A DNA stretch of 64,000 nucleotides from Halococcus salsus (GTDB lineage: Archaea > Halobacteriota > Halobacteria > Halobacteriales > Halococcaceae), in assembly GCF_009900715.1 (NCBI RefSeq), contig NZ_JAAAJC010000003.1, positions 248,001 to 312,000 of the forward strand, in the 5' to 3' direction. The notes beneath the pieces are model-generated. The model saw only the letters and a list, made by a program, of their open reading frames with translations. It did no database searches and had not been told where the DNA came from. Both the position numbers and the translations under genes were made by a program. Every line of letters begins with the position of its first letter. Positions within the stretch are counted from its first letter, which is position 1. This document shows, one piece after another, positions 26,544 to 63,527 of this stretch.

Positions 26544-26762
26544 CTATTCCGATTCGTGTCCCGTGACCTCGTAGCCGAGGTCGTTGACGGCCTGTTCGAC
26601 GTAGCTACCGGTGGTCGTATCGTCGGTCGCGAACGCAACGAGCCCCGTCTCGTGGTCGGCAGTGACGTCCGTGACGTCGTCGATGGCCTCGATCTCGCGT
26701 GTGAGAACGGCTTCGCAACCCCGGCAGGTCATCCCGTCGATGGAGAGTCGGTGACGCACCAT
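26544..26762 (-). CDS. Heavy-metal-associated domain protein (CopZ-like metallochaperone)
   Basis: 72 residues forming one HMA domain. The metal-binding motif is IDGMTCRGCEAVL (M-x-C-x-x-C; Cys near residues 12 and 15), followed by the beta-alpha-beta pattern ending NDLGYEVTG. It should bind Cu(I) or a similar soft metal in the cytosol and hand it to a P-type ATPase or sensor; no ATPase is adjacent. The start is fixed by ACATATATGT at 26785-26794, 27 bases upstream, making the mRNA leaderless; an upstream in-frame Met would precede the predicted transcription start. Confidence 0.88.
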   Translation of the reverse strand: MVRHRLSIDGMTCRGCEAVLTREIEAIDDVTDVTADHETGLVAFATDDTTTGSYVEQAVNDLGYEVTGHESE

Positions 26763-26889: not shown

Positions 26890-27696
26890 TCACTCGATCG
26901 CCTCGCCGCAGTGGGGACACCGCGACGGCTCCGTGTCGTCGTGGATGAACCCCGAGGCGAGGATGCTCGCGGGGAGCGCGACCAGGCCGGTGCCGAGCAC
27001 GGCGACCAGCCCGCCGAGGAGCTTCCCGAGCGGCGTCACCGGGTAGACGTCGCCGTAGCCGACCGTCGTGAGCGTGACGACGCCCCACCAGAGCGCCGCC
27101 GGAATGCTGGAGAACGCCTCGGGCTGGGCCTCGTGTTCGACGAAGTACAGCAGGCTCGACGAACAGACGACGAGCAGTGTTGTCCCGCCGAGCGCCACGA
27201 CCAGGTCGTCGGTCTTGCGACGCAACACGCGCTCGAACCGGGCGACCGAGTCGGAGTAGCGCACGAGCTTGGCCAACCGGAAGAACCGGACCAGTCGAAA
27301 CCCCCGGAGGAGACGGCCGTCGCCGCCGAACAGCGTGATCCCGACGTAGAACGGGGCGATCGCGAGGAGGTCGACGAGACACTCGGGGCGGGCCATGAAG
27401 CGGAGCCGGCCGAAGACCGGGTGGTCGTAGCCGTCGGCGGCCGTCGCCGACCAGACCCGGAGGCCGTACTCGACGGTGAACACCCCGACCGAAACCGCGT
27501 TGAACCGGTAGAGGAGTCCTCGATACCGGTCGAACACCGGGTCGACCGTTCCGAGCGCGACGGCGACGAGGTTCGCGACGATCAGCCCTGCGATGAAGAC
27601 GTCGACTGCTCCCGCCACTCGGCCGCCCTTCCCGACCGTCAGGAGCCGGTGAGTCGTGCGTTTGGCCGCTCGGTAGCCGGAGGCGATCCGAACCAC
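26890..27696 (-). CDS. Voltage-gated-type potassium channel
   Basis: 268 residues with six transmembrane helices. The S4 voltage sensor shows regularly spaced Arg in LRGFRLVRFFRLAKLVRY (near 130-147). The pore helix and selectivity filter are WWGVVTLTTVGYGDVYPVTP (near 205-224), containing T-V-G-Y-G-D. The C-terminus ends with CPHCGEAIE, a two-Cys zinc-ribbon-like tail with an His between. It should conduct K+ across the cytoplasmic membrane. It is the last gene of an operon running from the PadR regulator, 6 bases after the 104-residue protein. Confidence 0.92.
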   Translation of the reverse strand: MVRIASGYRAAKRTTHRLLTVGKGGRVAGAVDVFIAGLIVANLVAVALGTVDPVFDRYRGLLYRFNAVSVGVFTVEYGLRVWSATAADGYDHPVFGRLRFMARPECLVDLLAIAPFYVGITLFGGDGRLLRGFRLVRFFRLAKLVRYSDSVARFERVLRRKTDDLVVALGGTTLLVVCSSSLLYFVEHEAQPEAFSSIPAALWWGVVTLTTVGYGDVYPVTPLGKLLGGLVAVLGTGLVALPASILASGFIHDDTEPSRCPHCGEAIE

Positions 27697-27702
27697 TGGA
27701 GG

Positions 27703-28017
27703 CTACGGCCCGTGGTTGGCCTTGTGCTCACGGTAGAGCACGCCGGTGAACAGCGCGAACGGCACCAGCCCGGCCACCGCCAGCCCCATGCCGACCACGA
27801 GGATCAGTGGGAGATCCGCGTGGATGATGAAGTAGCCGAGCACGCTGACGCCGGCCCCGATGAACGCGACGACGCTCCCCAGCGCGAGCCCGAAGCTCCA
27901 CTTCCGAACCCCCCATTCGAGGTTCTCGGAGTTCCGGAGCATCTGGATCAGGACGGCGATCGGCGGGATCGTCAGCGCCACCAGCTGCAGGAGTTTGAGC
28001 GCGATGTTGGTGTTCAT
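27703..28017 (-). CDS. Three-helix membrane protein (104 aa), function unknown
   Basis: 104 residues, three hydrophobic helices (about 7-24, 41-63, 70-92) and a basic/histidine C-terminus LYREHKANHGP. NSENLEWGVRKWSFG links helices 1 and 2. It lies in the operon between the cytosolic beta-propeller and the K+ channel, suggesting a partner role at the membrane. No family recognised. Confidence 0.65.
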   Translation of the reverse strand: MNTNIALKLLQLVALTIPPIAVLIQMLRNSENLEWGVRKWSFGLALGSVVAFIGAGVSVLGYFIIHADLPLILVVGMGLAVAGLVPFALFTGVLYREHKANHGP

Positions 28018-28064
28018 TGGCGGTGCTCCGTGGTCGTCGGTCGTGTGAAGTAGGTCGTCATTGG

Positions 28065-28955
28065 TCAGCGTTCGATGATGGTTCCGTCCGCCCCGACGGC
28101 GACGTCGGTCGTGCCGCAGGCGACGGCGAGCAGGTCGGCTTCGACCGGGGAGTCGAGCCGACACCAGCCCCGGTCCGGGGTTCGTTCGTGGATCGTACCG
28201 CCCGCACCGACCGCGACCGCACCGTCGTCCGACCCCGCGGGCCGGGCGAGCCCGTGAACCGTCGCCTCGCCGACCGCGACGGGCGTCCAGTTCCGACACG
28301 GTCGGTCGTAGCGGTAGAGCCGCCCGTCGCCGCCGGCGACCAGCAGCGACCCGCCGGCGGCGGACAGGTCGAAGAAGTTCACCTCGGCGTTCTCGATCCC
28401 GATGCGATGCCAGCTCCCGTCGACCCGTTCGAGCACGGTGCCGCTCGTATCGGCTGCGTAGAGCGACGACCCGTCGGCGGCGAGCGCCGCGATCGTCGAG
28501 CCGCCGGCGGGCTTGGTGACGTCGCCGTACGAGGGACAGCCATGGTCGTCGCACTCGATCGGGAGCACCTCGCCAGAGCCGTTCGCGACCGAGAGGCGCT
28601 CCGTGTCGGTTCCGGCGACCGCGAGCGCCTCCCAGGTGCTGGTCTTCCCCATCGGGGCACTGAAATCCTCCTTTCGACCGGTTTCGGTGTCGTAGCGCCC
28701 GAGCGCGCCGCTGTCGCCCGCGAACCAGACCCGGTTCCGGTCGGCCGTGGCCGCGGCGCAGGTGAGTCGGTTCCCCCGGGTCGCGGGGCCTGACTCGACG
28801 AGGGGGTGCCAGCCCGACTCGTCGCGTGCGAGCACGAGACCGCCCTCGCCGACCGCGACGGGGCCGGCGGCGGTCTCGGTGACGGCCAGTAGTGTTCTGT
28901 CGGTCGGGGACTCGACCGCCCGCCACTCCCCCCGATTGGTCGTGGGATCGCTCAC
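28065..28955 (-). CDS. Cytosolic beta-propeller (WD40/YVTN/BNR-like) protein, paralogue of the gene at 34726
   Basis: 296 residues with no signal peptide or membrane helix. About six repeats share the pattern V-A-V-G-x-G-G-x-(V/I)-x-x-R, for example GPVAVGEGGLVLARDES (near 30), VWFAGDSGALGRYDTETG, SSLYAADTSGTVLERVDGSW, VAVGAGGTIHERTPDRGW and a final VAVGADGTIIER. The segment SAPMGKTSTWEALAVAGTDT and GSGEVLPIE are shared almost unchanged with the lipoprotein propeller at 34726-35700. No catalytic motif is seen, so it is likely a binding or scaffold protein. Four Cys are scattered late. Its operon encodes membrane proteins and a K+ channel. Confidence 0.72.
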   Translation of the reverse strand: MSDPTTNRGEWRAVESPTDRTLLAVTETAAGPVAVGEGGLVLARDESGWHPLVESGPATRGNRLTCAAATADRNRVWFAGDSGALGRYDTETGRKEDFSAPMGKTSTWEALAVAGTDTERLSVANGSGEVLPIECDDHGCPSYGDVTKPAGGSTIAALAADGSSLYAADTSGTVLERVDGSWHRIGIENAEVNFFDLSAAGGSLLVAGGDGRLYRYDRPCRNWTPVAVGEATVHGLARPAGSDDGAVAVGAGGTIHERTPDRGWCRLDSPVEADLLAVACGTTDVAVGADGTIIER

Positions 28956-28995
28956 GACGACCCTCCACCGAGGAGTACGGACCGGTCGACGGGAG

Positions 28996-29343
28996 TCACT
29001 GCGGTCCCCCGAACAGGATCGTGCCGAAGCCGGCTGCCACGACGGCCGTCACCGCCCACGCGACCAGGCCGACGCCGACCGCCGTCGGTGGGTTCGCCCC
29101 CGTTCGGTGGCCGACGACGCCGATCCAGGCCGCGGGCGAGAGCAGCGGCCCGACGACCGGGATCCAGCCGAACAGGAGCGTGAGGAGCGCCGAGAGGGCC
29201 GCCCCGATCCCGGCGGTGGCGAACGCCGCTCGCAGACCTGGTTTCGCGCGGGTCGCGCCGAGCGGGACCCCGAGGTAGACCGCGACGCCGCCGACCCCGA
29301 CGCCGACGACGAGGCTCACGACCGCGCCGAGGAGGCCGTTCAT
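28996..29343 (-). CDS. Membrane protein (115 aa), function unknown
   Basis: 115 residues, four hydrophobic segments (about 3-25, 38-60, 63-78, 90-112) with glycine-rich packing (VVGVGVGGVAVYLGVPLGAT). The ATG overlaps the PadR stop as ATGA, so the two are translated together. It resembles no family I can name; it may be small-molecule or ion related by operon context with a K+ channel. Confidence 0.62.
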   Translation of the reverse strand: MNGLLGAVVSLVVGVGVGGVAVYLGVPLGATRAKPGLRAAFATAGIGAALSALLTLLFGWIPVVGPLLSPAAWIGVVGHRTGANPPTAVGVGLVAWAVTAVVAAGFGTILFGGPQ

Positions 29344-29723
29344 CCCCCGTCACGTCCGGTTCCCTCGGTTTCGAGCGCGAGGAGGCAGCACTCCCCCCAC
29401 GCGGTGTGGGATTCGAGCCGGTCGCGCGCGGCCGGGCTCACCCGGTAGGCGTTCGTCCGGCCGTCGACCGGGCGCTTCTCGACGAGACCGTCGTCCACAA
29501 GGTCGCGGAGGTTCTGGTAGAGACGGCCGTGGTTGATCGCCTCGCCGTAGGTCTCCCGGAGGTGCCGTTTGACGTCGGTGCCGCTCGGGTTCGACCCGTC
29601 GAGGCTGATCAGCACGAACAGGATGTCGCGCTGGAAGCCCGTGAGATCGACGAGCGGCCGCGGGCCGTCCGGGGTGTCGAGCATCGATTCGTCGCCGGTG
29701 TCGCCGTAGTCGTTCACTGACAT
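29340..29723 (-). CDS. PadR family winged-helix transcriptional regulator
   Basis: 127 residues. LTGFQRDILFVLISLDGSNP then SGTDVKRHLRETYG and INHGRLYQNLRDLVDDGLVE form the PadR winged helix, followed by VDGRTNAYRVSPAARDRLES. Archaeal PadR proteins with this core bind promoters of nearby membrane or stress genes. A Met three codons upstream is possible. It opens the operon to the 115-residue protein, propeller, 104-residue protein and K+ channel, and probably autoregulates it. It starts 64 bases after the oxidase subunit gene ends. Confidence 0.82.
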   Translation of the reverse strand: MSVNDYGDTGDESMLDTPDGPRPLVDLTGFQRDILFVLISLDGSNPSGTDVKRHLRETYGEAINHGRLYQNLRDLVDDGLVEKRPVDGRTNAYRVSPAARDRLESHTAWGECCLLALETEGTGRDGG

Positions 29724-29787
29724 AGTGGTCACGACGGCTGGTGCCGTCGACGGCGCGCCCGGGGCTCGAACCCGGTCGCCGGCCTGG

Positions 29788-31422
29788 TTACCGGTCGCGG
29801 TGGGTGGGGCGGTCGGCGGGGTCGTCCTCGGCGTCGGTGTCGGGGGCCTCGGCCGCCAATCGTCGCTCGAACGCCCGCCACTCGCGTGTCAGCCCGCCGT
29901 TCTCGCGGAGGTCCCAGACGTCGGCCGACTCGACGACGGGACCCGCACGCCACGAGGCGACCACGTTCCAGACCCAGAGCACCTGCGCGAAGCCGATGAG
30001 GAACGCGCCGAGGGTGATCACCTGGTGGAAGCCGGCGAAGCGGACGGGATAGGTCGCCATCCGGCGCGGGAGCCCCGCCGCCCCGAGCGCCAGCATCGTG
30101 AGGAAGGTGACCGCGACGCCGACCGTCGTCAGCCAGAAGTGCGCCCGTGCGAGGGTCGGATCGAACAGCCGCCCGGTGAAGAGCGGGAACCAGAAGTAAC
30201 ACGCCGCGAACAGCGCGAACACCACCATCCCGACGAGAACGAGGTGAAAGTGGCCCACGACGTAGTAGGTGCCGTGGTAGACGAGGTCCACCGGAACCGC
30301 CGCGAGGAAGACGCCGGTGACGCCGCCGAGAACGAAGTTACCGATCGCCCCGACGCAGAACAGCATCGGGACGGTGAGCCTGATGTTCCCGCCCCACATC
30401 GTGGCGAGCCAGTTGAAGACCTTGACCGCGCTCGGGAGCGCGATCGCGAGCGTGACGGCCATGAAACTCGCCCGGATCCGGGGGTCGATGCCCGTCGTGA
30501 ACATGTGGTGGGCCCAGACCCCGAAGGAGAGCACCGCGATCGCGAGCGTCGAGTAGACGATGTACTCGTAGCCGAACAGCTCTCTCCCGCTGAACTTCGG
30601 GATCAGGTGGCTCAGGATCCCCATCGGCGGGAGCGCGAGGATGTAGACCTCGGGGTGGCCGAAGAACCAGAAGAGGTGCTGCCAGAGCAGCGGCCCGCCG
30701 CCCTCGACGGCGAAGAAGGTGGTTCCCAGGTTCCGGTCGGCGAGCAGGCAGACCAAGGCAGTTCCGAGCACGGGGAAGGCGACGAGCACGAGGCCGCTCG
30801 TGGCGAGCATCGTCCACGAGAAGACGTCGAGGCGGTGCCAGCCGACCTCGCGTTCGGCGACGACCGTGACGGCGAGGTTCGCCGCGCCGAGCATCGTGGC
30901 GACCCCGCTCAGGTGGAGCCCGAGCAGCGTGCAATCGAGGCCGACGTTGGTCGAGACCGTCGAGAGCGGCGGGTAGAACGTCCAGCCGGTCGCCGGCGGG
31001 GTGATCGAACCGACCCCGAACACGTCGGCGACCGTCCCGGCACGCACCAGGAGGAAGGCCGGCGGGAGGAGCCAGAATGCGACGGCGTTGAGCCGTGGGA
31101 AGGCCATCTCGCGGGCCCCGACCAGCGATGGCACCACTCGGTTCGCCAGCCCGAACGTCACCGGCGTGACGAACAGGAACAGCATCGTCAGGCCGTGGGT
31201 GGTGAACAGCTCGTCGTAGGTTCCCGCCTCCCAGACGTCGGCGGCCGGGGTGAGCAGCCCGGTCCGGAGCAGGAGCGCGTCGAGGCCGCCGAGCAGCCCC
31301 GCCGCGACCCCGAAGACGACGTACAGCACGCCGATGTCCCGGTGGTCGAGGGTGGTGAGCCACCCGAACGCGCCGGGAAGCGTGCGACGGTCCACGTCGG
31401 TCGGCGATTCTTCGCGGGTCAT
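29788..31422 (-). CDS. Heme-copper oxidase subunit I (A-type)
   Basis: 544 residues, about 12 transmembrane helices. Heme a His in FTTHGLTM (His76), the CuB His plus cross-linked Tyr in FFGHPEVY, CuB His pair in WAHHMFTTG, and heme ligands in VVGHFHLVLVG are all present. The K-channel Lys is in SAVKVFNWLATMW. The D-channel entry region reads GAREMAFPR where most A-type enzymes have an Asp, here Glu. The enzyme reduces O2 to water and pumps protons. No subunit II (CuA) or III gene is adjacent, which is unusual; partners must be elsewhere or a quinol-type use is possible. Confidence 0.9.
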   Translation of the reverse strand: MTREESPTDVDRRTLPGAFGWLTTLDHRDIGVLYVVFGVAAGLLGGLDALLLRTGLLTPAADVWEAGTYDELFTTHGLTMLFLFVTPVTFGLANRVVPSLVGAREMAFPRLNAVAFWLLPPAFLLVRAGTVADVFGVGSITPPATGWTFYPPLSTVSTNVGLDCTLLGLHLSGVATMLGAANLAVTVVAEREVGWHRLDVFSWTMLATSGLVLVAFPVLGTALVCLLADRNLGTTFFAVEGGGPLLWQHLFWFFGHPEVYILALPPMGILSHLIPKFSGRELFGYEYIVYSTLAIAVLSFGVWAHHMFTTGIDPRIRASFMAVTLAIALPSAVKVFNWLATMWGGNIRLTVPMLFCVGAIGNFVLGGVTGVFLAAVPVDLVYHGTYYVVGHFHLVLVGMVVFALFAACYFWFPLFTGRLFDPTLARAHFWLTTVGVAVTFLTMLALGAAGLPRRMATYPVRFAGFHQVITLGAFLIGFAQVLWVWNVVASWRAGPVVESADVWDLRENGGLTREWRAFERRLAAEAPDTDAEDDPADRPTHRDR

Positions 31423-31428
31423 CGGTCG

Positions 31429-32706
31429 TCAGGTCGACTCCACGGGCCAGGTGGCCCCCACGAGGAACTCGCGCACCCCGACCGCGCCGACCACGGTCGC
31501 GAGGCCGAACGCGAGCGTCGGGCTCGCGGCGTAGACCACCCCGCCGATCAGGGCGGTTGGAACGCGAACCGCCGCCCGGAGCAGTCGGTAGCGGTCGACA
31601 TCGTCGGCGTCGAGGGTCGATTCGACGGCGCGCCGACCGAGCGGGAGCCCGGCGTGGTAGAGGCCGAACGCCGCGAACAGCGCCGCGACGACCGCGGGGT
31701 TCGCGGGCGCGGCGACCAGTGCGACCGGGAACAGCGCCGCGACGAGGAGCAGTGCCGTCGCGACGCGCTCACGGCCGAGCCGGTCGGCGAGGTGGTCGAG
31801 CGGGCGGGGGGCGACGAGCGCGACCAGGGTCTCGGCCAGCAGGCAGAGCCCGAAGAACGCGTCGGGCCGGAACCGAAAGCCGAGCAGTACGATGTCGATC
31901 CGGAGCACGCTCGTCACGGTGATGACGAGGAACACCGACACCATCCCGACCGCGAGCGCGACCAGGGTCTCGCCGAGGGCGAGCTGGCGCGACGCGCGCG
32001 GCAGCGAGCGGAACGCGGCGAGCGCCCCACGGAGCCGCCTGCGGCGAGCGGTCGACGGCTCGCCGGACGTGCTGGACAGCACCCCGGTCGTGGAGTCGTC
32101 ACGGACCGCGAGGAACACGGCGGTCGTCAGCCCGAGCCCGGCCGCGAGCCCGAGCACGACCTGGATCGCGGCGCGCGCCGGCGAGACCTCGACCAGCACC
32201 CAGACCAGGGCCAGGAGGCCGAGCAGGATGGCGGCGTACCGCGAGGCCCGGTCGTGTCGCAACGCGTGCGGAACGCGTTCGGCGACGTGCCGTGGCACGA
32301 CCGCGTCGAGGCCGATACCGAGGTCGAAGGCGGGCCACAGCCCGACGAGGAACAGCCCAACGAACACCAGTGTCGTGGGTCGGCCCGCCCCGACCTGTGG
32401 GACGAGGAGCCAGCAGACCAGGCCGAACGAGGCGAGCCCCGCGAGCACCGGACCGGCCAGCGAACCGAGCCGGTCCAGTCCCGCATCGAGCGCGGGGTAC
32501 ACCAGCCCGGCCAGGGCCGCGAGGCTGCCGAAGAGACCGATGAACAGCGGGCCGTTGCCGAGCAGCCGGAGGTACTCCGGGGCGTACCGGAGCGCCGCGA
32601 AGACCGCGACGTCGAAGCCGACGACCGCCGCCGCGGCCGCAGTGCGACCGGTCACGATATCGAGGTGGTCGGGATCGGTGCGGCGGCGGGTGCTGTCGGG
32701 TGTCAT
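31429..32706 (-). CDS. MFS-type multi-helix membrane protein
   Basis: 425 residues, about 12 hydrophobic helices in two halves separated by a polar loop (about 205-235, STSGEPSTARRRRLRGALAA). The motif-A-like RPLDHLADRLGRERVATALL follows a helix in the second half. It fits a major facilitator superfamily transporter of unknown substrate. It ends 6 bases before the oxidase subunit I gene, so the two are probably cotranscribed, suggesting a link to oxidase assembly or to a cofactor such as copper or heme; that is inference only. Confidence 0.75.
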   Translation of the reverse strand: MTPDSTRRRTDPDHLDIVTGRTAAAAAVVGFDVAVFAALRYAPEYLRLLGNGPLFIGLFGSLAALAGLVYPALDAGLDRLGSLAGPVLAGLASFGLVCWLLVPQVGAGRPTTLVFVGLFLVGLWPAFDLGIGLDAVVPRHVAERVPHALRHDRASRYAAILLGLLALVWVLVEVSPARAAIQVVLGLAAGLGLTTAVFLAVRDDSTTGVLSSTSGEPSTARRRRLRGALAAFRSLPRASRQLALGETLVALAVGMVSVFLVITVTSVLRIDIVLLGFRFRPDAFFGLCLLAETLVALVAPRPLDHLADRLGRERVATALLLVAALFPVALVAAPANPAVVAALFAAFGLYHAGLPLGRRAVESTLDADDVDRYRLLRAAVRVPTALIGGVVYAASPTLAFGLATVVGAVGVREFLVGATWPVEST

Positions 32707-32777
32707 CGAGTGAGGTCAAAACGGCGTCGTCGTGTCGGTCGGAAACGGTTCGGCGAGCGGCGATACCGGACCGAGGG

Positions 32778-32876
32778 TCAGTCGGTCCGGTCGAGCGCGC
32801 GCTTGCAGCGCTCGACCGCGTCGGTGATGGTCTCACGGAGCTGTGCAGCCGTCGAACGAAGTGGGTTCTCTTGCAT
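32778..32876 (-). CDS. Small amphipathic protein (32 aa)
   Basis: An ATG at 32876 opens MQENPLRSTAAQLRETITDA then VERCKRALDRTD and TGA. The peptide has even charge and a clear helical heptad-like pattern, typical of real short haloarchaeal proteins, with one Cys. It lies on the same strand between the permease and the MFS gene. No family recognised. Confidence 0.42.
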   Translation of the reverse strand: MQENPLRSTAAQLRETITDAVERCKRALDRTD

Positions 32877-32981
32877 GGGTTCAGGAGTCGTCGGATTCTC
32901 GTCAGTCGGTCAGCGATTCGATTCTCGGTCGGTTTCCGGTCGATACTCGGTCGTCGTCGGGTCGACGACGGCCGCGGGCAG

Positions 32982-34433
32982 CTACCGGAGCTCCCGCCCG
33001 GCCGTGTAGAGCGCGGCGCAGGCGTCGTAGACGGCGACGAGCGCCAACCGAACCGCGCCGGCGATGGTCGCGACGCCGCCGCCGACCGACCGCGCGCCGT
33101 CCCCGAAGGTACGGCCCGCGGTCGCGAGGTCGGCACCGAACGCGCGGCTGATCCGGGCGAGGAGGCCCCCGGCGTCGAGCGCGGTCTCGCCCGCCCGCCA
33201 CACGGCGAACGGCAGCGACCGCACCGCCGCCTCCAGTCGCTCGGGGCCGTAGGTCATGTAGAGCTGCCAGACGAACACCGGCGTGAACACGAGGTTCAGG
33301 ATGGTGGTGTACTCGCCCGACAGCGTGCCGCCGACGGCGGACTGAGTAGGGATCAATCCGAGCCCGCCCATCAGGTAGTGGACCGCGATACCCGCCACGA
33401 CCGCCGCGAGCGCCAGCGACCCGAACAGCACCACCGCCATCCGGGTTCCGTAGTAGCGCCGGTAGGTCCTCGCCAGCGGCGGGATGATGAGGTCGGCGTA
33501 GATGAACGAGAGCACGCTCCCGAACGGGAGGCCGTTGGTCCAGAGCACCAGCGCGAAGGGGACGTTCCCGACCGAGCACATGAACGTCACCACGCCGATC
33601 CCCACCGCGAGCAGCGTCGCGACCACGACGGACGCGAAACCGTGCTCGGCCCCGAACAGCGTGCCCCACCACGCGCTCGGAACGAACGCGCCGATGACCC
33701 CCGCGAGGACGAACCCGAGCGCGATGTCCGTCCAGAGCATCTCCCACTCCTTGACGGTCTTCGCGCACGCGGCGTCCCAGCCGTCGATGGTGAGGAGCTT
33801 CCGGCTCCAGGGGACGTCGTCGCCGTCGACGTCGTCGTGCTGGCTCTCGTAGGCCCGCCGGCAGCCGCCACAGCAGAAGTACCTCGTTCCGCCGGTGGTT
33901 TCGAGGGTCGCGGTGTCGTCGTCGGTAGGGTCGGCCGCCATCCCGCAGGCCGCACAGGTCGTCTCCTCCACCTCGTGGAGGTGTTCGCGCGCGGCCTCGA
34001 ACCAGCTCGCCGGGACGACGTGCCGAAAGAGCGTGACGAGGACCGCGATGGCGATGATCCCGCCGAGGTACTCCCCGACGACGAACTGCCAGCCGAGCAG
34101 CACCCAGAGGACTAACCCGAGTTCGATCACGAGGTCGGTGCTCGCGAACATGAACGCGCCGAGGCTCGCGGTTCCGGACGCGCCCTTCTTGAACAGCGAC
34201 TTCGCGGTGCCGACCGCGGAGTACGAACAGCTCGAGGAGGCCGCGCCGAACAGCGAACCCAGCGCGACCTCGCGTCGGCCGTCGCCGCCGAGGAGCTCGG
34301 TCATCCGCTGCTCGCTCACGAACACCTCGACGACCCCGGAGATGGTGAACCCGAGCACGAGCGCCCACCACGTCTCCCAGGTCATCCCGGCGATGCGACT
34401 CAACGCGTCGACGACGGTGGCAGTGACTGACAT
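32982..34433 (-). CDS. Permease (ArsP/SO_0444 family) with a YHS/TRASH-type metal-binding insert
   Basis: 483 residues. The permease family signature GSLFGAASSSCSYSAVGTAK (near 60) and its second-half counterpart FMCSVGNVPFALVLW are present, with about eight or nine helices. Between helices, near residues 155-195, lies a soluble metal-binding module with CAACGM and later FCCGGCRRAY, matching a YHS/TRASH-type Cys cluster. Related permeases export arsenic species, Cu or Zn. The C-terminal 80 residues are amphipathic and glycine/alanine-rich. The insert could sense or load the transported metal. An AT-rich promoter (GTTTTATTAC near 34680) implies a leader of about 220 bases. Confidence 0.85.
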   Translation of the reverse strand: MSVTATVVDALSRIAGMTWETWWALVLGFTISGVVEVFVSEQRMTELLGGDGRREVALGSLFGAASSSCSYSAVGTAKSLFKKGASGTASLGAFMFASTDLVIELGLVLWVLLGWQFVVGEYLGGIIAIAVLVTLFRHVVPASWFEAAREHLHEVEETTCAACGMAADPTDDDTATLETTGGTRYFCCGGCRRAYESQHDDVDGDDVPWSRKLLTIDGWDAACAKTVKEWEMLWTDIALGFVLAGVIGAFVPSAWWGTLFGAEHGFASVVVATLLAVGIGVVTFMCSVGNVPFALVLWTNGLPFGSVLSFIYADLIIPPLARTYRRYYGTRMAVVLFGSLALAAVVAGIAVHYLMGGLGLIPTQSAVGGTLSGEYTTILNLVFTPVFVWQLYMTYGPERLEAAVRSLPFAVWRAGETALDAGGLLARISRAFGADLATAGRTFGDGARSVGGGVATIAGAVRLALVAVYDACAALYTAGRELR

Positions 34434-34725
34434 CAGTGGCGCTCGGGGAATAGGTCGACCCGCCCGGGGCGAGTCGTCGGTTTCGAATCGGTTCGGTAGC
34501 TGTCTCGCGATCCACGCCCATCGGTTCGCGTCGAACGGGGTCCGCGGTCGCGGGACTTCCGATCGAATCGGGATCGCAGAAATCGCTGGATAGCGGCCCG
34601 CGAGTCATCCGCGTTCGGCGGCTCGAACGCGTCGTCTCGGGTGGGCGTGCATCGTTGCGTAGATTCTCGGGTGTAATAAAACGTTGCGATCGTCGATATT
34701 TTCGTCACGTCGGCGCGGGCCGTCC

Positions 34726-35700
34726 TCACGCGAAGTTCTCCAGAACGGTTCCATCGGCACCGACGGCGACGTCGGCGTACTCGACGGTCCCGAGCGCGAC
34801 GCCGTGGAGTGTCGTCGAGACCGGTGTCTCGGACGTCGTCCACTCGGTGCCGTCGGCCGCCACGACCGTGCCACCGGGGCCGACGGCGACGCCGCGACCG
34901 CCACGGCGGTCGACCGCGTGGAGCGCGTTCCCGACCGAGGCGACCGCGAGCCAGTCGTACCCATCGTAAACGAACACCGAGCCGTCGTCGCCGACGGTCG
35001 TGACCGTCTCCGCGTCGAGCATGGCGACGTCGTGCAGGGTCGTGCTCACGTCGTCGATGCCCACCGACCGCCACTGGCCGTTCGCGGAGCCGCGGTAGAC
35101 GCTCCCGGTCGAGTCACAGAGGTAGCTCGCCCGCGGGCGGGCGGCGATGGCGTCGGCGCTGTCCCCGCCGGAGGGTTTCGTGACGGTGCCCCACCGAACG
35201 GACTCCCCGGAGACGCGGCCGGGGAGGAGCTCGCCGGAGCCGTTGAGGAGGAGAACGCGCTCGTCGCCCGCGCGGCCGACGACCGCGACGTCCGCCCACG
35301 AACTCGTCTTCCCCTTCGGGGCGGAGTGGTCGGTGATCGCCTTGCTCCGGACGTCGTAGCGCCCGACCGCACCGCTGTCGCCGCAGACCCAGACCCGCTC
35401 GCCGTCGCCCGTCGTAGCCGCGCCGGTGAGGCCGTTGCTCGCGTTCCCGGGTCCGCGCTCGACGACCGTCTCCCAGTCGTCGTCGGTGCGGGCGAGCACG
35501 CGACCGCCCTCGCCGGCCGCGACCGGGCCGCGGCCGGTGAACACCACGTCGCGGAGCGCTTTCCTCGTCGGGGAGGAGACCCGTTGCCAGCCGTGGGTGG
35601 TGGTCGAACCGCCCAGACAGCCCGCGAGACCGACCGTGACGCCGCCCGCGAGCGCGAGCGCCGCCCGGCGCGTGTAGCCGTGAGCGGTGTCGGGACTCAT
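34726..35700 (-). CDS. Tat-type lipoprotein beta-propeller, paralogue of the gene at 28065
   Basis: 324 residues. The N-terminus YTRRAALALAGGVTVGLAGC is a twin-arginine signal with a lipobox Cys (near 30), so the protein is exported folded and lipid-anchored outside the cell. The body is a propeller of about six blades with GPVAAGEGGRVLARTDDDW, VWVCGDSGAVGRYDVRSK, SAPKGKTSSWADVAVVGRAG, GSGELLPGR and a final VAVGADGTVLENF. It shares these landmarks with the cytosolic propeller. No enzyme motif. The ATG overlaps the stop of the 410-residue membrane protein gene (ATGA). Confidence 0.75.
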   Translation of the reverse strand: MSPDTAHGYTRRAALALAGGVTVGLAGCLGGSTTTHGWQRVSSPTRKALRDVVFTGRGPVAAGEGGRVLARTDDDWETVVERGPGNASNGLTGAATTGDGERVWVCGDSGAVGRYDVRSKAITDHSAPKGKTSSWADVAVVGRAGDERVLLLNGSGELLPGRVSGESVRWGTVTKPSGGDSADAIAARPRASYLCDSTGSVYRGSANGQWRSVGIDDVSTTLHDVAMLDAETVTTVGDDGSVFVYDGYDWLAVASVGNALHAVDRRGGRGVAVGPGGTVVAADGTEWTTSETPVSTTLHGVALGTVEYADVAVGADGTVLENFA

Positions 35701-36929
35701 GGGCGCTCCCGCGAGGAGTCCCGGAGGGCCTCGATGTAGTCCGGGGTCTCGCCGCGCGGCGTGAACGCGCCCGGCGCGGCGGTGCGTTTCGCGATGGTGG
35801 CGATCCGGACGATGAAGGCGAAGAAGACCGCGAAGGGGAGCGAGGCCACCCCGAGCGCGGCACTCACGACGAACAGCATCCCGGTGCCGTAGCCGCCCGC
35901 CGGAACCCCGTTGGCGAACAGCAGGACCAGGAACAGCGAGACGAGGAACGCGGCCATTCCCGTGTACGCGATCAGCCGCGAGAGCCGCGCGAGCTCCTGT
36001 TTGATGTAGAGCGCCTTGAAGTACTGCCGGATGACGTCCATCGAGACGAAGAGGTCGCGGAGGTCGGCGAGGAGGTCGTCGGCGCGCTCGGGGAGCTCGT
36101 ACTCGGTCTGGATCCGGCGCGCCTCGTTGACGTTCTCGGAGTAGCCGTCGCCCATCATCGGCAACAGGACCTCCATCAGCCGGAGGCGGTCGCCGTCGAG
36201 GCGGCCTTCGAGCCGCGTGGTCGCGGTGATGACCCGCCGGGCGTAGCGCTCGATACGGATTTCGAGCGCCTCGTCGCCGATATCCGTGCAGGCGCGTTCG
36301 AGTTCGGCGGCCCGCTTCGAGAGCACGCCGTTGGCGAGCGCCGCGAATCGCCCGGGGTCGGTGGGGCTCACCGCGGTGCCGGGGAGGCGGTCCTCGATGG
36401 TGGCGCGAAAGGCCGCGATGCCGTGGATCTGTTCGCGGAGGTCGTCGGGCGTCCCGAAGAGCTGGGAAATCGTGAGCTGGTTGACCGCGATGATGATCGG
36501 GACGAACGAGAACAGCCCCGCGATCACGGTGGTGAAGATGCTCGTCACGAAGTCGCTCCGGTCGATCCCGAACACCCCCGTGAGGCTCAGCCCGAACGCG
36601 ACGACCACGATGCCGCCAACCAGCCCGCCGACGATCGTCCAGCGTCTGCCTTCGAGCAGGAACCACCGCTGAGCACGGATCCGTCGCTCGCGTTCGGTGA
36701 GGAACGAGACCGCGAGCCGCCCGCCTATTATCACTAGTCGCCCCGCAAGCCAGAGGAGCTCGACGAGGAGCGTCGTGACCACCCGAACGACGGGGTAGAG
36801 CGATTCGAAAGTGAAGCGGTTCGGTTCGTCGGTGTCGGTCGTGTCGTTCGCGTCGCTGTGCGTCGGTTCGGTCGGTCCGGTCGAACTCGTCCCGTTCGTC
36901 GAGTCCGCTGGTTGGATGTCGTCGGTCAT
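35697..36929 (-). CDS. Membrane protein (410 aa) with acidic Thr-rich N-terminus, function unknown
   Basis: 410 residues. Residues 1-40 are acidic and Thr/Asp-rich. Hydrophobic pairs lie near 45-75 and 90-150 (VGGLVGGIVVVAFGLSLTGV, then VIAGLFSFVPIIIAVNQLTI) and near 315-380. The middle 160 residues are a soluble helical domain (ADDLLADLRDLFVSMDVIRQ). It is translated with the DUF389 protein before it and the lipoprotein propeller after it (two 4-base ATGA overlaps). No family is certain. Confidence 0.68.
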   Translation of the reverse strand: MTDDIQPADSTNGTSSTGPTEPTHSDANDTTDTDEPNRFTFESLYPVVRVVTTLLVELLWLAGRLVIIGGRLAVSFLTERERRIRAQRWFLLEGRRWTIVGGLVGGIVVVAFGLSLTGVFGIDRSDFVTSIFTTVIAGLFSFVPIIIAVNQLTISQLFGTPDDLREQIHGIAAFRATIEDRLPGTAVSPTDPGRFAALANGVLSKRAAELERACTDIGDEALEIRIERYARRVITATTRLEGRLDGDRLRLMEVLLPMMGDGYSENVNEARRIQTEYELPERADDLLADLRDLFVSMDVIRQYFKALYIKQELARLSRLIAYTGMAAFLVSLFLVLLFANGVPAGGYGTGMLFVVSAALGVASLPFAVFFAFIVRIATIAKRTAAPGAFTPRGETPDYIEALRDSSRERP

Positions 36930-37987
36930 AGGTAGGGAACTATCGCGATGAGGTCCGCGAGGCTGCCGGTCGCGAGGTGGGCGAGGAAGGTCACCAGCGC
37001 CACCACCGCCGCCGCGAGCACGACCGCGCGGCGCAGCATCGTGCTCCGGGCCTTCCGGAGTTCGGACCAGCTCCGTGGGTGGTAGCCGAGATACCAGAGA
37101 CAGATGATCGCCGCGAGGTTGATCGAGAGCACGTTCAGGAGGACCACCGCCATGGAGCCGACGACGGCGGTGGGTCGACCCCACGCGATACCGACGCCGA
37201 CCACGCCGAGCGGCGGGATCATCGCGGCGGCGATCATCACGCCGACCAGCCCGATGTTGGCGGAGGTCGAGAGGCTGATCGCGCCCGCGAAGCCCGCGCT
37301 CAGCGCCACCACGACGAGCAGGAAGCTCGACGCGGTGTAGTTGCTGAGGCCGAGCACCGCTTCGAGGTCGATGCCGGTGGGGACGAGATGCGTGGTTCTG
37401 ACGACCAGCGCGAACCCGACCGCGCTCGCGACCGCGACGGCCGCGCCGAGCGCCTGGAACTTCAGGCTCCGGACGAAGAGCTTCTGGTCGTCGATCACGG
37501 TCGCCACGGAGGTCGCCATCGGCGGGCCGATCAGCGGCGCGATCACCATCGCGCCGACGAGCACGGAGACCGATTCGAGCATCACGCCGCCCGTGGCGAC
37601 CACCGCGCTCACCGCCGTCAGAAGCGAGTAGATCGCCGGGTCGGGGATCAGGTCGGCGGCCTTCGAGTGGAGTTCGCCGCGCGAGATCCCCTGGTGGCCC
37701 AGCCCCTCGACCTGCTCGAAGCGGTCGTCCGAGGGCCCAAGTCGCTCTGAGGTGACGGTCTCGGGTTCGACGACCACCGTGTACATGTCCGCACCGAGGT
37801 CGAGGTTCGCGAGTTCGGTCTGGATCGGTTCGACGGCGTTCGCCGGCACCGGAAACGAGACCGTCGCGGAGGTCTCCGGGTCGTCGGTTCGGTCGGAGAC
37901 GGTGTAGTCCAGGTCGTTGTCGTCGAGTACCTCCATCACGGTCTCGCGGGTCGAGCGCGACATCGTGATCACCTCGACGAGCCGCAT
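36926..37987 (-). CDS. TIGR00341/DUF389 family membrane protein
   Basis: 353 residues starting MRLVEVITMSRSTRETVMEV, the usual start of this family. The first 125 residues are a soluble ferredoxin-like part. Then DPAIYSLLTAVSAVVATGGV, VLVGAMVIAPLIGPPMATSV, the gap-forming SLSTSANIGLVGVMIAAAMI and PPLGVVGVGIA follow, in about seven helices. The role of DUF389 proteins is unknown; a transport or polymer-related function has been suggested. The long upstream extension in the frame is polar and not included. It heads the operon DUF389, 410-residue protein, lipoprotein propeller. Confidence 0.85.
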   Translation of the reverse strand: MRLVEVITMSRSTRETVMEVLDDNDLDYTVSDRTDDPETSATVSFPVPANAVEPIQTELANLDLGADMYTVVVEPETVTSERLGPSDDRFEQVEGLGHQGISRGELHSKAADLIPDPAIYSLLTAVSAVVATGGVMLESVSVLVGAMVIAPLIGPPMATSVATVIDDQKLFVRSLKFQALGAAVAVASAVGFALVVRTTHLVPTGIDLEAVLGLSNYTASSFLLVVVALSAGFAGAISLSTSANIGLVGVMIAAAMIPPLGVVGVGIAWGRPTAVVGSMAVVLLNVLSINLAAIICLWYLGYHPRSWSELRKARSTMLRRAVVLAAAVVALVTFLAHLATGSLADLIAIVPYL

Positions 37988-38141
37988 GTCCTTGCGCGCC
38001 ACCGGGCTCACACCCCCCGGCCGCGCGCCCGTCGGTCGGGGGCGCACGGCCGTCGTGTCGCGTGATTCGTTTCGATCGTCGTGACTTGTCGTTGTAGTGA
38101 TGTATGCATGCATCGGGGAGAACATCGTGCCGCGCCCGCCG

Positions 38142-38435: not shown

Positions 38436-38690
38436 TCAGGGCTCCCGGTCGGACTCCATCTCGATCTCCGTGACGCCGTCGGAAGCGGGCTCGACGGGTT
38501 CGAGCAGCGACTTCACGGCTTCGAGGGTTTCGAGGCGGTCGCCCACCTCGGCGAGGAGAGCTGCGCGGCGCGCGCGAAAGCGGGCCTCGGTGTAGCCTTC
38601 GGGGTCGTCGGGTTCGTCGAGCAGGTCGACCAGCTCCGTGAACAGCTCGCGCTCGGACAGCCGCTCCGGCGGCGTCTCGGGTGGGTTCAT
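38436..38690 (-). CDS. Small acidic helical protein (84 aa), function unknown
   Basis: 84 residues, strongly acidic, two predicted helices with ERELFTELVDLLDEPDDPEG and ARFRARRAALLAEVGDRLET. No Cys. A GCCATAAAA-type box near 38731 could drive it with a leader of about 14 bases. Typical of haloarchaeal cytosolic proteins; no family recognised. Confidence 0.6.
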   Translation of the reverse strand: MNPPETPPERLSERELFTELVDLLDEPDDPEGYTEARFRARRAALLAEVGDRLETLEAVKSLLEPVEPASDGVTEIEMESDREP

Positions 38691-38805: not shown

Positions 38806-39363
38806 TCAGAACTGGACGAACGCGTCCGGGTCGACCGCGTCGTCGAACGCGCGGCCGTAGAGGGCGGCGACCGTCTCGCGGATGGCGGGGAGCTGGTCGG
38901 CCCCGTCGTCGCAGCCTCTCACGCACCGGGCGGTGATGCCGGTCTCGTACTGTTCGTACCGAAGCCGCCCGTGACACCGCGGACACCGGGGCTCGACGTG
39001 GGCGTGCATCCAGTCGACGTCGTAGCCGGCGGTCGCGAGCCGGCGTCGGAGCGCGTACCAGACGTGGACGTCCCAGGACTCGGCCCCCTCGCCCACCCGT
39101 TTGAGGCGTGCGAGCGCCAGCGCCGCCTTTCGGTAGAGCCGGTCGTCGGCGGGCCGGTGACGGTCGTGGCAGTCACGGAACCGGTTGAACAGCGCGGCCT
39201 TCGAGGACCGGACCGCGCCGGTCGTGAACTCGCCCGCGGCCTGGGCCGCGAGCGAGCGCTCGTCCGCGGTGACGACCCGCTTCGGTCGCCCGGTCTCGTC
39301 GTAGTATCGTTCGTCGGAAAGCGATGCACCCGTCTTGGGACAGAAAGCGTCTTCTCCTATCAT
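38806..39363 (-). CDS. Zinc-ribbon-like protein (185 aa), function unknown
   Basis: 185 residues. Begins MIGEDAFCPKTGASLSDERY with a lone Cys-x-x-x-G pattern. A helical middle (ALFNRFRDCHDRHRPADDRL) is followed by a zinc-type cluster PRCPRCHGRLRYEQ (C-x-x-C) and ARCVRGC near residues 128-153, then an acidic helix. It could bind zinc and nucleic acid. Upstream sequence to 39600 in the same frame is Pro/Arg-rich and is not included. No family recognised. Confidence 0.6.
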   Translation of the reverse strand: MIGEDAFCPKTGASLSDERYYDETGRPKRVVTADERSLAAQAAGEFTTGAVRSSKAALFNRFRDCHDRHRPADDRLYRKAALALARLKRVGEGAESWDVHVWYALRRRLATAGYDVDWMHAHVEPRCPRCHGRLRYEQYETGITARCVRGCDDGADQLPAIRETVAALYGRAFDDAVDPDAFVQF

Positions 39364-39687: not shown

Positions 39688-40524
39688 CTACATCCCGAAG
39701 GCGATCGGGAGCGGAGGCTGGACGAGGAGTACCGCGAGGCCGGCGAGGAACGCCGCGAGTCCCGTCGCGGTCGCGACCTCGCGGCCCCAGTCGGGGAGGC
39801 GTTCGAGCGCGACCACGCCGGTCAGAACCACCATCCAGACGAGGTTCATCTCGCCGAAGAACGGCATGAGGAGGAAGAAGGGCCCGAAGCAGACCAGCAC
39901 ACAGCTGCCCCCGTGGACCAGCCCGTTGGCGAAGCCGGCACCGAGGCCGTTGGTGTGGGCGTCGACGGACGCACAGCACGTCCGCAGCCGGGACTGCTTG
40001 AACGACGAGAGCTGGTAGAGCCCACAGCAGACGAGGGCACCACCGACGACGAGGGCGGTGTGGGCACGCGTGACCCCGTAGATACCACCCGGCAACGCCG
40101 CGTCGAGCCCGAGCGGGAGCACGCCGGAGCCCAGCCAGACGAGGGAGTAGCCACCGAGAAAACCCGTGACGGCGGTCGTGACCGCGAGCGCCGACCCCTC
40201 GTGGGCGGCGGCGTACTCCCGGACGAACCGGGTCATCGCGGGCTGCATCATCGCCCACATCATCACCCCCCACATCACGAGGTAGCCCGCGACCGCGCCG
40301 AGCGTGCCGACGTGGAACACCCCGCGTTCCATCGCCCCCGGTGCGGCCATCGGGATTCCCGCCTCCATCAGCCACATCATCCCCGGCATCGGGAGGTGGC
40401 CGTCGGCCACCAGCAGCCACCAGACCACGTCGAGGAGGACCATCGCCGCCACGGCCGCGGTCGTCCGGTCGAACGAGACGTCGAACCGGGCGGCGAGCCA
40501 CGACCCGGTACCCTGGTCCGTCAT
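39688..40524 (-). CDS. DUF2182 integral membrane protein, predicted metal-binding
   Basis: 278 residues, about seven helices. Methionine-rich segments characteristic of DUF2182 (PF09948) are visible: HLPMPGMMWLMEAGIPMA (near 44) and YLVMWGVMMWAMMQPAMTRF (near 83), with CCGLYQLSSFKQSRLRTCCA near 165-185 and GGSCVLVCFGPFFLLMPFFG later. Met and Cys clusters inside the membrane suggest a copper-type metal. It is divergent from a DtxR-type regulator. DUF2182 proteins often sit with metal-response genes; the exact role is unknown. Confidence 0.85.
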   Translation of the reverse strand: MTDQGTGSWLAARFDVSFDRTTAAVAAMVLLDVVWWLLVADGHLPMPGMMWLMEAGIPMAAPGAMERGVFHVGTLGAVAGYLVMWGVMMWAMMQPAMTRFVREYAAAHEGSALAVTTAVTGFLGGYSLVWLGSGVLPLGLDAALPGGIYGVTRAHTALVVGGALVCCGLYQLSSFKQSRLRTCCASVDAHTNGLGAGFANGLVHGGSCVLVCFGPFFLLMPFFGEMNLVWMVVLTGVVALERLPDWGREVATATGLAAFLAGLAVLLVQPPLPIAFGM

Positions 40525-62118: not shown

Positions 62119-62903
62119 CCGATGCCGCCCTGACGGAGCTCGTCGGTGTGGGCCGAGAGCAGGTCCGCCGTCGCGAGCACCAGCACGTCGAGCCCCTTCG
62201 TGGCCGCCTCGCGAACCGCGGGCGCGGTGGCGAACCGGATGTCGACGTCGACCCCCGCCGCACGAGCGGTCGCGAGGGCCTCGGTACCGGCGGTCGCCAC
62301 GAGGTCGTGGTCCTCGGCGAGGTCGGTCACGGTCGTCGGGTCGACCGCCGAACTGCCGCCGCGCTGGACGCCGGGGACCGAGACCGCGGTCACCGACCCG
62401 ACCTCGTGTTCGACGAGCCCCTCGAACTCCGTGACACCGACGTCCTGGCCGGGCTCGGCGTCGGTGATGGCGACCGCGGTGGCGCTCCCGGCCTCGCCCG
62501 CCGTCGCCGACAGCACCCCGTCACGCATCGCGAGCGAGACCGTCTCGTCCGCGGCGATCTCGGTGGTTGCGACCGCGGTCTCGACCTCGACGCGACCGAC
62601 GACGTCCTCGGTGACGTGCCGGATGAACCCCCGGAGGTCGTCGGTCTGGCTCAGGAGCCAGTCGACGCCCTCCTTCGTGACCTCGTACCGGCCGCGACCG
62701 TGCTTCGCGACGTAGCCCTCCTCGGCGAGCCCCCCGAGGTACTCGCTCACGGCCTGAGCGGTGACGCCGATGGCGTCGGCGATCTCGCGCTGGCTCACCG
62801 CGGGCTGGCGGTCGGCGACCTCGACCAGGATCTGATAGCGCGTGGCGTTTCGCTTGCTCTCGAGAACGCCCGCACGACTGGCCTCGTCCGCGTTCGTCGG
62901 CAT
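62091..62903 (-). CDS. Winged-helix (MarR/TrmB-like) transcriptional regulator with C-terminal sensor domain
   Basis: 270 residues. LVEVADRQPAVSQREIADAI then GVTAQAVSEYLGGLAEEGYV and KHGRGRYEVTKEGVDWLL form the winged helix (about 25-90). The rest is a large alpha/beta domain with Val/Ala-rich strands (ALATARAAGVDVDIRFATAP) and no Cys; it may bind a small effector. It is the type of two-part regulator common in haloarchaea. Target unknown; it is divergent from the Hsp20 gene. Confidence 0.78.
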   Translation of the reverse strand: MPTNADEASRAGVLESKRNATRYQILVEVADRQPAVSQREIADAIGVTAQAVSEYLGGLAEEGYVAKHGRGRYEVTKEGVDWLLSQTDDLRGFIRHVTEDVVGRVEVETAVATTEIAADETVSLAMRDGVLSATAGEAGSATAVAITDAEPGQDVGVTEFEGLVEHEVGSVTAVSVPGVQRGGSSAVDPTTVTDLAEDHDLVATAGTEALATARAAGVDVDIRFATAPAVREAATKGLDVLVLATADLLSAHTDELRQGGIGYEVVDVGS

Positions 62904-63022
62904 ACCTGCCCCTCGACACCCATCCAGCAAGTAGTTTGGCGTCCACCGACCGGCACCCACCGGCCACTGGAAGACACCACGCGCCGCCGAAGCGGCCGAT
63001 TGCTACCACACATCTCAGCCAT

Positions 63023-63047
63023 TTTATATAGTCAGAAGTCGTATATA
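63023..63047 (+). promoter_or_regulatory. Hsp20 promoter (TATA boxes)
   Basis: TTTATATA at 63023-63030 lies 37 bases upstream of the ATG, giving a leader of about 10 bases. A second TATA-like GTATATA follows at 63041-63047. This strong AT signal suits a stress-inducible gene. Confidence 0.65.
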
Positions 63048-63062
63048 GGGGTGGAGATTCAC

Positions 63063-63527
63063 ATGAGCTACAAAGACACTCCCTTCGAACGCATGGACCG
63101 GATGATGGACGAGATGAACCGCCGCTTCGCCACGATGAACTGGGGTGATTGGCAGGACGCGGACTGGCGAATGCCCGCGCTGGAGAGCGGTTCCGACGGC
63201 CGCTGGGACCACAGCGAGTGGGACACCACCCTGAACGTCGAGCGCGATGCGGAGGGGTTCACGGTGCTCGCCGACACCCCCGGCTTCGAACGCGACGAAC
63301 TCGACGTCCGGTTCCACGACGGGACCCTCCACATCGACGGCGCGCACGAAGACGACCACGAGGGCTTCCACAGCCGCCGGTTCAGCCGCGAGGTCAGCCT
63401 CGACGGCGACGTCCTCGAAGACGAGATCACCGCCCACTACCGCAACGGGATGCTCGAAATCCGGGTGCCCACCGAGGACACGCCCGAGGTCATCGACGAG
63501 GGCCGTCGGATCGAGATCGAGGACTGA
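63063..63527 (+). CDS. Hsp20/alpha-crystallin family small heat-shock protein
   Basis: 154 residues. The N-terminal arm is Met/Trp-rich (ERMDRMMDEMNRRFATMNWG), and the alpha-crystallin domain runs from about residue 55 (TTLNVERDAEGFTVLADTPG) to GMLEIRVPTEDTPEVID, with the G-x-L-type motif GMLEI near 139. It forms oligomers that bind unfolding proteins. The strong TATA box suggests heat induction. A T-rich tract CTCTTTTTCTTAT after the stop (63539-63551) is a likely terminator. Confidence 0.93.
   Translation: MSYKDTPFERMDRMMDEMNRRFATMNWGDWQDADWRMPALESGSDGRWDHSEWDTTLNVERDAEGFTVLADTPGFERDELDVRFHDGTLHIDGAHEDDHEGFHSRRFSREVSLDGDVLEDEITAHYRNGMLEIRVPTEDTPEVIDEGRRIEIED

Follow-up and report, generated by a model that had tools for sequence, protein, structure and literature searches.

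Gene Cluster of Halococcus salsus

The window analyzed here is a stretch of 64,000 nucleotides from Halococcus salsus (contig NZ_JAAAJC010000003.1, positions 248,001 to 312,000), and positions within this window are used throughout. The genes between 26544 and 40524 form a co-directional block on the minus strand that encodes two beta-propeller proteins, denoted propellers A and B, together with subunit I of a heme-copper oxidase (COX1), proteins for the handling of copper, and a series of membrane proteins that includes TM104, TM115, TM410, a DUF389 protein, and a K+ channel. The original prediction for this window had assigned the two propellers to two different membrane-protein operons. The gene orders that were given, PadR/115-residue protein/propeller/104-residue protein/K+ channel and DUF389/410-residue protein/propeller, were found to be correct, and the two 4-base overlaps (DUF389-TM410 and TM410-propeller B) are real; PadR and TM115 overlap by 4 bases as well. 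However, the two gene groups are parts of a single conserved cluster, and the COX1, MFS-like, and permease genes that lie between them had been left out, as had the flanking HMA, zinc-finger-like, and PpoB2 genes.

Properties of Propellers A and B

Propellers A and B were found to be paralogues, as had been proposed, with 41% identity over a full-length alignment (BLASTP E 2e-56). The Smith-Waterman score of A against B is 513 and 300 shuffles reach at most 84, so the relationship is beyond chance. The landmark segments GDSGA-GRYD, SAP-GKTS-W, NGSGE-LP, and VAVGADGT are in register between the two proteins. Propeller A has no signal sequence, and the N-terminus of propeller B, MSPDTAHGYTRRAALALAGGVTVGLAGC, contains a twin-arginine translocation (Tat) motif followed by a lipobox. 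The AlphaFold2 model of A, obtained with a 65-row alignment, has a mean predicted local distance difference test score (pLDDT) of 95.2 and a predicted template modeling score (pTM) of 0.92. The strand list of this model describes seven four-stranded blades, in which the first short strand completes the last blade; the expected propeller fold was thus recovered. Given its 41% identity to A, propeller B is predicted to be seven-bladed too.

The propellers at the cluster loci of other haloarchaea (see below) were sorted into type A and type B by their neighboring genes. The Tat motif and lipobox cysteine are present in 33 of the 33 type B proteins with an intact N-terminus, of which that from locus L187 fits loosely, and in 0 of the 32 type A proteins. 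The predicted inside/outside division of the original pair therefore holds throughout. Several type A proteins carry an acidic N-terminal stretch that is probably disordered. In the propeller tree, A falls among cytosolic paralogues and B among exported ones, and the deepest split has a Shimodaira-Hasegawa-like approximate likelihood ratio test (SH-aLRT) value of 99. The tree was made by a quick method; within the two sides the branching order is less certain, and B is maybe not one clade. Two cysteines, Cys140 and Cys220, are kept in 30 of 31 A-type proteins, with a sole exception that has neither, and are absent from B. Both are also found in two near relatives of A from outside the sampled clusters. 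According to the strand list, the two residues are located in the c-d loops of blades 3 and 5.

Linkage of the Propellers to COX1

The conservation of the cluster was determined in a sample of 391 haloarchaeal genomes. To avoid circularity, the TM104 alignment alone, with no propeller sequence, was used as the query. Matches were obtained in 37 of the 391 genomes, and the 35 strong ones correspond to 35 loci from 16 genera and six families. About 20 kb was retrieved for each locus, and the genes were called with a codon-usage model, which recovered all of the genes of the original prediction. Some of the counts below are lower bounds because the retrieved stretches end within the cluster.

Genes for COX1 and the TRASH permease were found in 35/35 loci. 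Propeller B is also present in 35/35, after one cut locus was extended and a gap in the gene calls of another was checked, and propeller A is present in 32/35. The MFS-like gene (34/35), PadR (33/35), and TM410 (32/35) are nearly as constant, followed by DUF389 (28/35) and the zinc-finger-like protein ZnR (27/35). Copper chaperones are present in most loci, with PpoB2 in 25/35 and the HMA protein in 13/35. The least frequent are TM115 (12/35), the K+ channel (5/35, all from Halococcus), and the 84-residue protein (4/35). The order DUF389-TM410-propeller B is widely kept.

At least one member of the propeller family was found in 210 of the 391 genomes, and the genome of Halococcus salsus has four. 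The family is represented in 35/35 genomes with a TM104 locus versus 175/356 of the others (Fisher p ~1e-10, a value that ignores relatedness). For the search of the genome contigs, A and B alone as queries found nothing, and a profile of 25 sequences was successful. In the genome of Halococcus salsus, no propeller was found near the three other COX1 loci. We found no report on this cluster in the open-access literature, a scope that makes this a weak sign of novelty.

Several further features of the loci and of the propeller family were observed. The whole cluster resides on large plasmids in Haloprofundus salinisoli (L209, NZ_CP083664.1) and Natrinema zhouii (L210, NZ_CP084883.1). The gene for propeller B at L206:886-2048 is split over two frames, by either a frameshift or a sequencing error. 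A gene resembling the Glu/Leu/Phe/Val dehydrogenases is found in 20/35 loci, mostly directly before propeller A (for example, L101:6433-7737). Elsewhere, the propeller is repeated two to four times in tandem within exported (Tat) proteins (L038-L040 and L121-L134); the C-terminus of those from Halococcus resembles, by eye, an EF-hand/dockerin repeat. In other paralogues (L032, L042, L044-L049, and L148-L164), a pair of membrane helices at the N-terminus is followed by a long acidic linker and the propeller, and those from Halococcus adjoin helicase and RNase Z-like genes.

Genes of the Block

The genes of the block are listed in Table 1. The intergenic gaps from the MFS-like gene through COX1, PadR, TM115, propeller A, and TM104 to the K+ channel range from -4 to 64 bases, and the permease gene is set off from its neighbors by gaps of 275 and 292 bases. 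Neither tRNA nor Rfam RNA genes were found within the window. The structural model of TM410 is all-helical and of low confidence (pLDDT 66, pTM 0.52), too weak for a structure search. The TM410 gene of Natrinema zhouii is labeled by NCBI as 'cbb3-type cytochrome c oxidase subunit I', which is probably a misannotation.

Table 1. Genes of the co-directional block (positions in the window)
Feature	Position	Strand	Supporting observation
HMA copper-chaperone-like protein, MxCxxC	26544..26762	-	PF00403 E 1e-10
K+ channel, TVGYGD filter	26890..27696	-	Ion_trans PF00520 E 1.2e-27
TM104, 104-residue membrane protein, cluster marker	27703..28017	-	66% mean column identity, 20 sequences
Propeller A, 296 residues, GTG start, predicted cytosolic	28065..28955	-	41% identity to B; AlphaFold2 model
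TM115, small membrane protein	28996..29343	-	no Pfam match
PadR-like regulator	29340..29723	-	PF03551 E 8e-9
COX1, heme-copper oxidase subunit I	29788..31422	-	PF00115 E 2e-142
MFS-like transporter	31429..32706	-	weak MFS_1 match, under curated cut-off
ArsP/SO_0444-type metal permease, TRASH-like cysteines	32982..34433	-	PF03773 E 2e-69
Propeller B, 324 residues, predicted Tat-exported lipoprotein	34726..35700	-	RR motif and LAGC lipobox
TM410, membrane protein of unknown family	35697..36929	-	4-base overlaps with both neighbors
DUF389 membrane protein	36926..37987	-	PF04087 E 1e-29; in-frame start at 38002 also possible
84-residue protein, mostly Halococcus-specific	38436..38690	-	no Pfam match
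ZnR185, small zinc-finger-like protein	38806..39363	-	conserved Cys/His positions
PpoB2-type membrane copper chaperone (formerly DUF2182)	39688..40524	-	PF09948 E 1e-34

Cluster Oxidase and Copper Handling

The COX1 of the cluster is an A-type heme-copper oxidase subunit I as judged from its ligands, including the cross-link tyrosine. The histidines for heme a, heme a3, and CuB, the tyrosine, and the K-channel lysine are intact in 35/35 sequences. The glutamate of the HPEVY motif, which is the D-pathway glutamate of A1 oxidases, is kept in Halococcus salsus (residue 258) and replaced in 17/35 sequences, by leucine in 16 and by glutamine in 1. The replacements (L166-L180, L182, and L183) come nearly all from one family (f4), and these enzymes possibly use a different proton pathway. 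A gene for COX2 was not found in the 64-kb window, and two are located elsewhere in the genome. Among the retrieved loci COX2 was found in 2/35, in addition to a few named ones, and it adjoins propeller B in a few genomes.

The cysteine motifs CxxC and CCxxC of the permease are conserved across the clusters, as are the M, C, and C of the MxCxxC motif in 15 HMA sequences. The PadR-like regulator has a conserved C-terminal W-x3-CL motif, perhaps a site for the sensing of metal or redox state. PpoB2 was previously shown to deliver copper specifically to the tyrosinase encoded in the same operon (PMC2855505). Because PpoB2 serves the oxidase of its own operon, the PpoB2-type gene beside COX1 suggests, by analogy, a dedicated delivery of copper to the cluster COX1.

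Sequence and Structural Relatives of the Propellers

The only relatives by sequence in the PDB at E <1e-4 are Ycf48/HCF136, and the profile matched 8am5 with E values of 1.7e-15 and 6.6e-16. This match is pieced together from blade-sized segments, and it therefore demonstrates the type of repeat and not orthology. One orthologue of B has been named 'YCF48-related protein' by NCBI. Foldseek and VIA-align matched the A model to WD40 and other seven-bladed propellers of a generic kind; Ycf48 ranks 9, 15, and 21 with Foldseek and is not among the 50 VIA-align matches listed. In structure the model is as similar to WD40 proteins as to Ycf48, and the fold alone singles out no family. Propeller A passes the cut-off of PF23366 (Beta-prop_HVO_0234) with 39.9 versus 27 bits, and B gave no match. 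Even so, A is probably not HVO_0234 itself, because the close member of this family in the genome is another gene, on contig 2 at 62342-63085 with 253 bits.

Ycf48 is a lipid-anchored seven-bladed propeller for the assembly of photosystem II that binds D1 at the later ligands of the manganese cluster and blocks the premature binding of metal (PMC10403576, PMC8038367). It departs before the complex is active, and the completed complex no longer contains it (PMC10403576).

Proposed Function

Because the cluster is conserved around an oxidase subunit and genes for the handling of copper, propellers A and B most likely help to build or stabilize the oxidase rather than gate ion channels, as far as sequence and gene order can indicate. 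We propose, with a probability of roughly 45%, that A and B act from the two sides of the membrane in the assembly or metallation of the cluster oxidase. Propeller B shares with Ycf48 the type of fold, the predicted anchor, and an adjacent membrane redox enzyme, and for this reason A and B are put forward as candidate biogenesis factors; a role as lasting subunits appears less likely.

In the proposed mechanism, the lipid-anchored propeller B would bind nascent COX1, alone or together with COX2, on its outer side and would shield or shape it until the metal is inserted, much as Ycf48 sits on D1 before the manganese cluster is formed. Propeller A would have an equivalent role on the cytosolic face, perhaps via Cys140 and Cys220. 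Copper would be brought by the HMA and PpoB2 proteins, excess metal would be moved by the TRASH permease, and expression may be controlled by PadR. The most specific version, a two-sided clamp in which the cysteine-bearing cytosolic propeller and the extracellular lipoprotein propeller hold the oxidase subunit while dedicated chaperones load the copper, is offered as a tentative and rather doubtful model.

A number of observations weigh against a role in oxidase biogenesis. Three loci contain B without A. The arginine patch of Ycf48 (Arg180, 196, 215, 219, 220, and 237) is not evident in the aligned columns, where the blade register is ambiguous. Propellers are binding folds of a generic kind, and the A model resembles WD40 proteins as closely as it does Ycf48. 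Because COX2 is seldom encoded in the cluster, the cluster does not specify a complete oxidase. The gene neighborhood does not discriminate between factors for assembly and stable subunits, and we know of no link between an oxidase and either DUF389 or TM410.

The most probable of the alternatives is that the propellers are permanent structural subunits, or serve as scaffolds, in an oxidase supercomplex that joins COX1, DUF389, TM410, and TM104. The fixed linkage is equally compatible with such a complex, and propellers generally act as binding platforms. We are aware of no heme-copper oxidase with subunits of this kind. The nearest characterized relative by sequence, Ycf48, is missing from the mature complex (PMC10403576), and we consider permanent subunits to be unlikely.

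It is somewhat less likely still that the cluster functions mainly in the homeostasis of copper or heavy metals, with propellers that bind or sense metal and with COX1 as one copper-dependent part of several. The TRASH permease, HMA, PpoB2, and ZnR are all rich in conserved Cys/His/Met, A has its conserved pair of cysteines, and the distribution is patchy (37/391 genomes) with some of the copies on plasmids. However, an invariant COX1 with intact ligands in every locus is above the expectation for a cluster whose main task is metal resistance.

According to the original prediction, one propeller inside the cell and one outside would be coupled to the K+ channel or to DUF389 transporters in a module for sensing or gating. 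The inside/outside pair stands, as it is kept in 16 genera; the coupling to a channel does not, since the K+ channel is missing from 30/35 loci and is confined within the cluster to one genus. A general pairing of propeller and K+ channel was therefore rejected. In favor of the prediction, DUF389 and TM410 adjoin B at the majority of the loci and are true, frequent neighbors of it; DUF389 is nevertheless less constant than COX1 (28/35 versus 35/35). The channel is found in all five Halococcus loci, and an antiporter with TrkA-C in some of the others also favors a gating role, but we regard such a module as quite improbable. A channel was also seen near the cluster outside Halococcus, in one Saliphagus genome (L101). 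A cation/proton antiporter (PF00999) lies inside the cluster at L098, L188, L189, and L195, where Halococcus has the K+ channel, and at no fewer than two of these loci, L098 and L188, a TrkA-C protein accompanies it. Transport of a monovalent cation (potassium or sodium) thus appears to be a recurrent but optional companion.

Finally, the propellers might merely travel as passengers on a mobile block, with no functional tie to the oxidase; this explanation is already disfavored and the least probable. The cluster is accessory and sometimes plasmid-borne, and propeller paralogues are common elsewhere, but B and A are retained (35/35 and 32/35) in 16 genera despite several rearrangements of the genes, with strict localization and A-specific residues maintained.

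To our knowledge, the assembly and metallation of archaeal heme-copper oxidases are largely unstudied. The conserved cluster offers candidates for a partner at either face of the membrane, which makes the biogenesis of such an oxidase testable. The terminal oxidases of haloarchaea are described as highly diverse, and roughly one third of haloarchaea lack complex III and have an electron path that is not yet resolved (PMC8305020).

Comparison with Known Systems

The cluster COX1 matches mycobacterial and mitochondrial COX1, subunit I of the A-type (aa3) oxidases, over its full length; unlike these, it is usually found without an adjacent COX2 or COX3. The permease shares the core of the SO_0444-family Cu/Zn efflux permeases (NF033936 E 3e-23, under the curated cut-off) and differs by an inserted TRASH-like region. 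In the PpoB1/PpoB2 operon of Marinomonas, a PF09948 copper chaperone is likewise encoded with the copper oxidase that it may serve, but the oxidase there is a tyrosinase, whereas here it is a heme-copper COX1 and propellers have been added.

With Ycf48/HCF136, the propellers described here have in common the seven-bladed fold with YCF48-type repeats and a gene location beside a membrane redox complex, and propeller B is likewise predicted to be an outward-facing lipoprotein. Propeller A differs in this respect, as none of the type A proteins has the Tat-lipobox N-terminus. The haloarchaeal propellers also form an inside/outside pair linked to COX1, in organisms without a photosystem; we know of no photosystem II in haloarchaea. 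If the proposed role is true, then the principle of Ycf48, in which a propeller guards the site where a membrane redox enzyme holds its metal, would be used outside of photosynthesis, in respiration.

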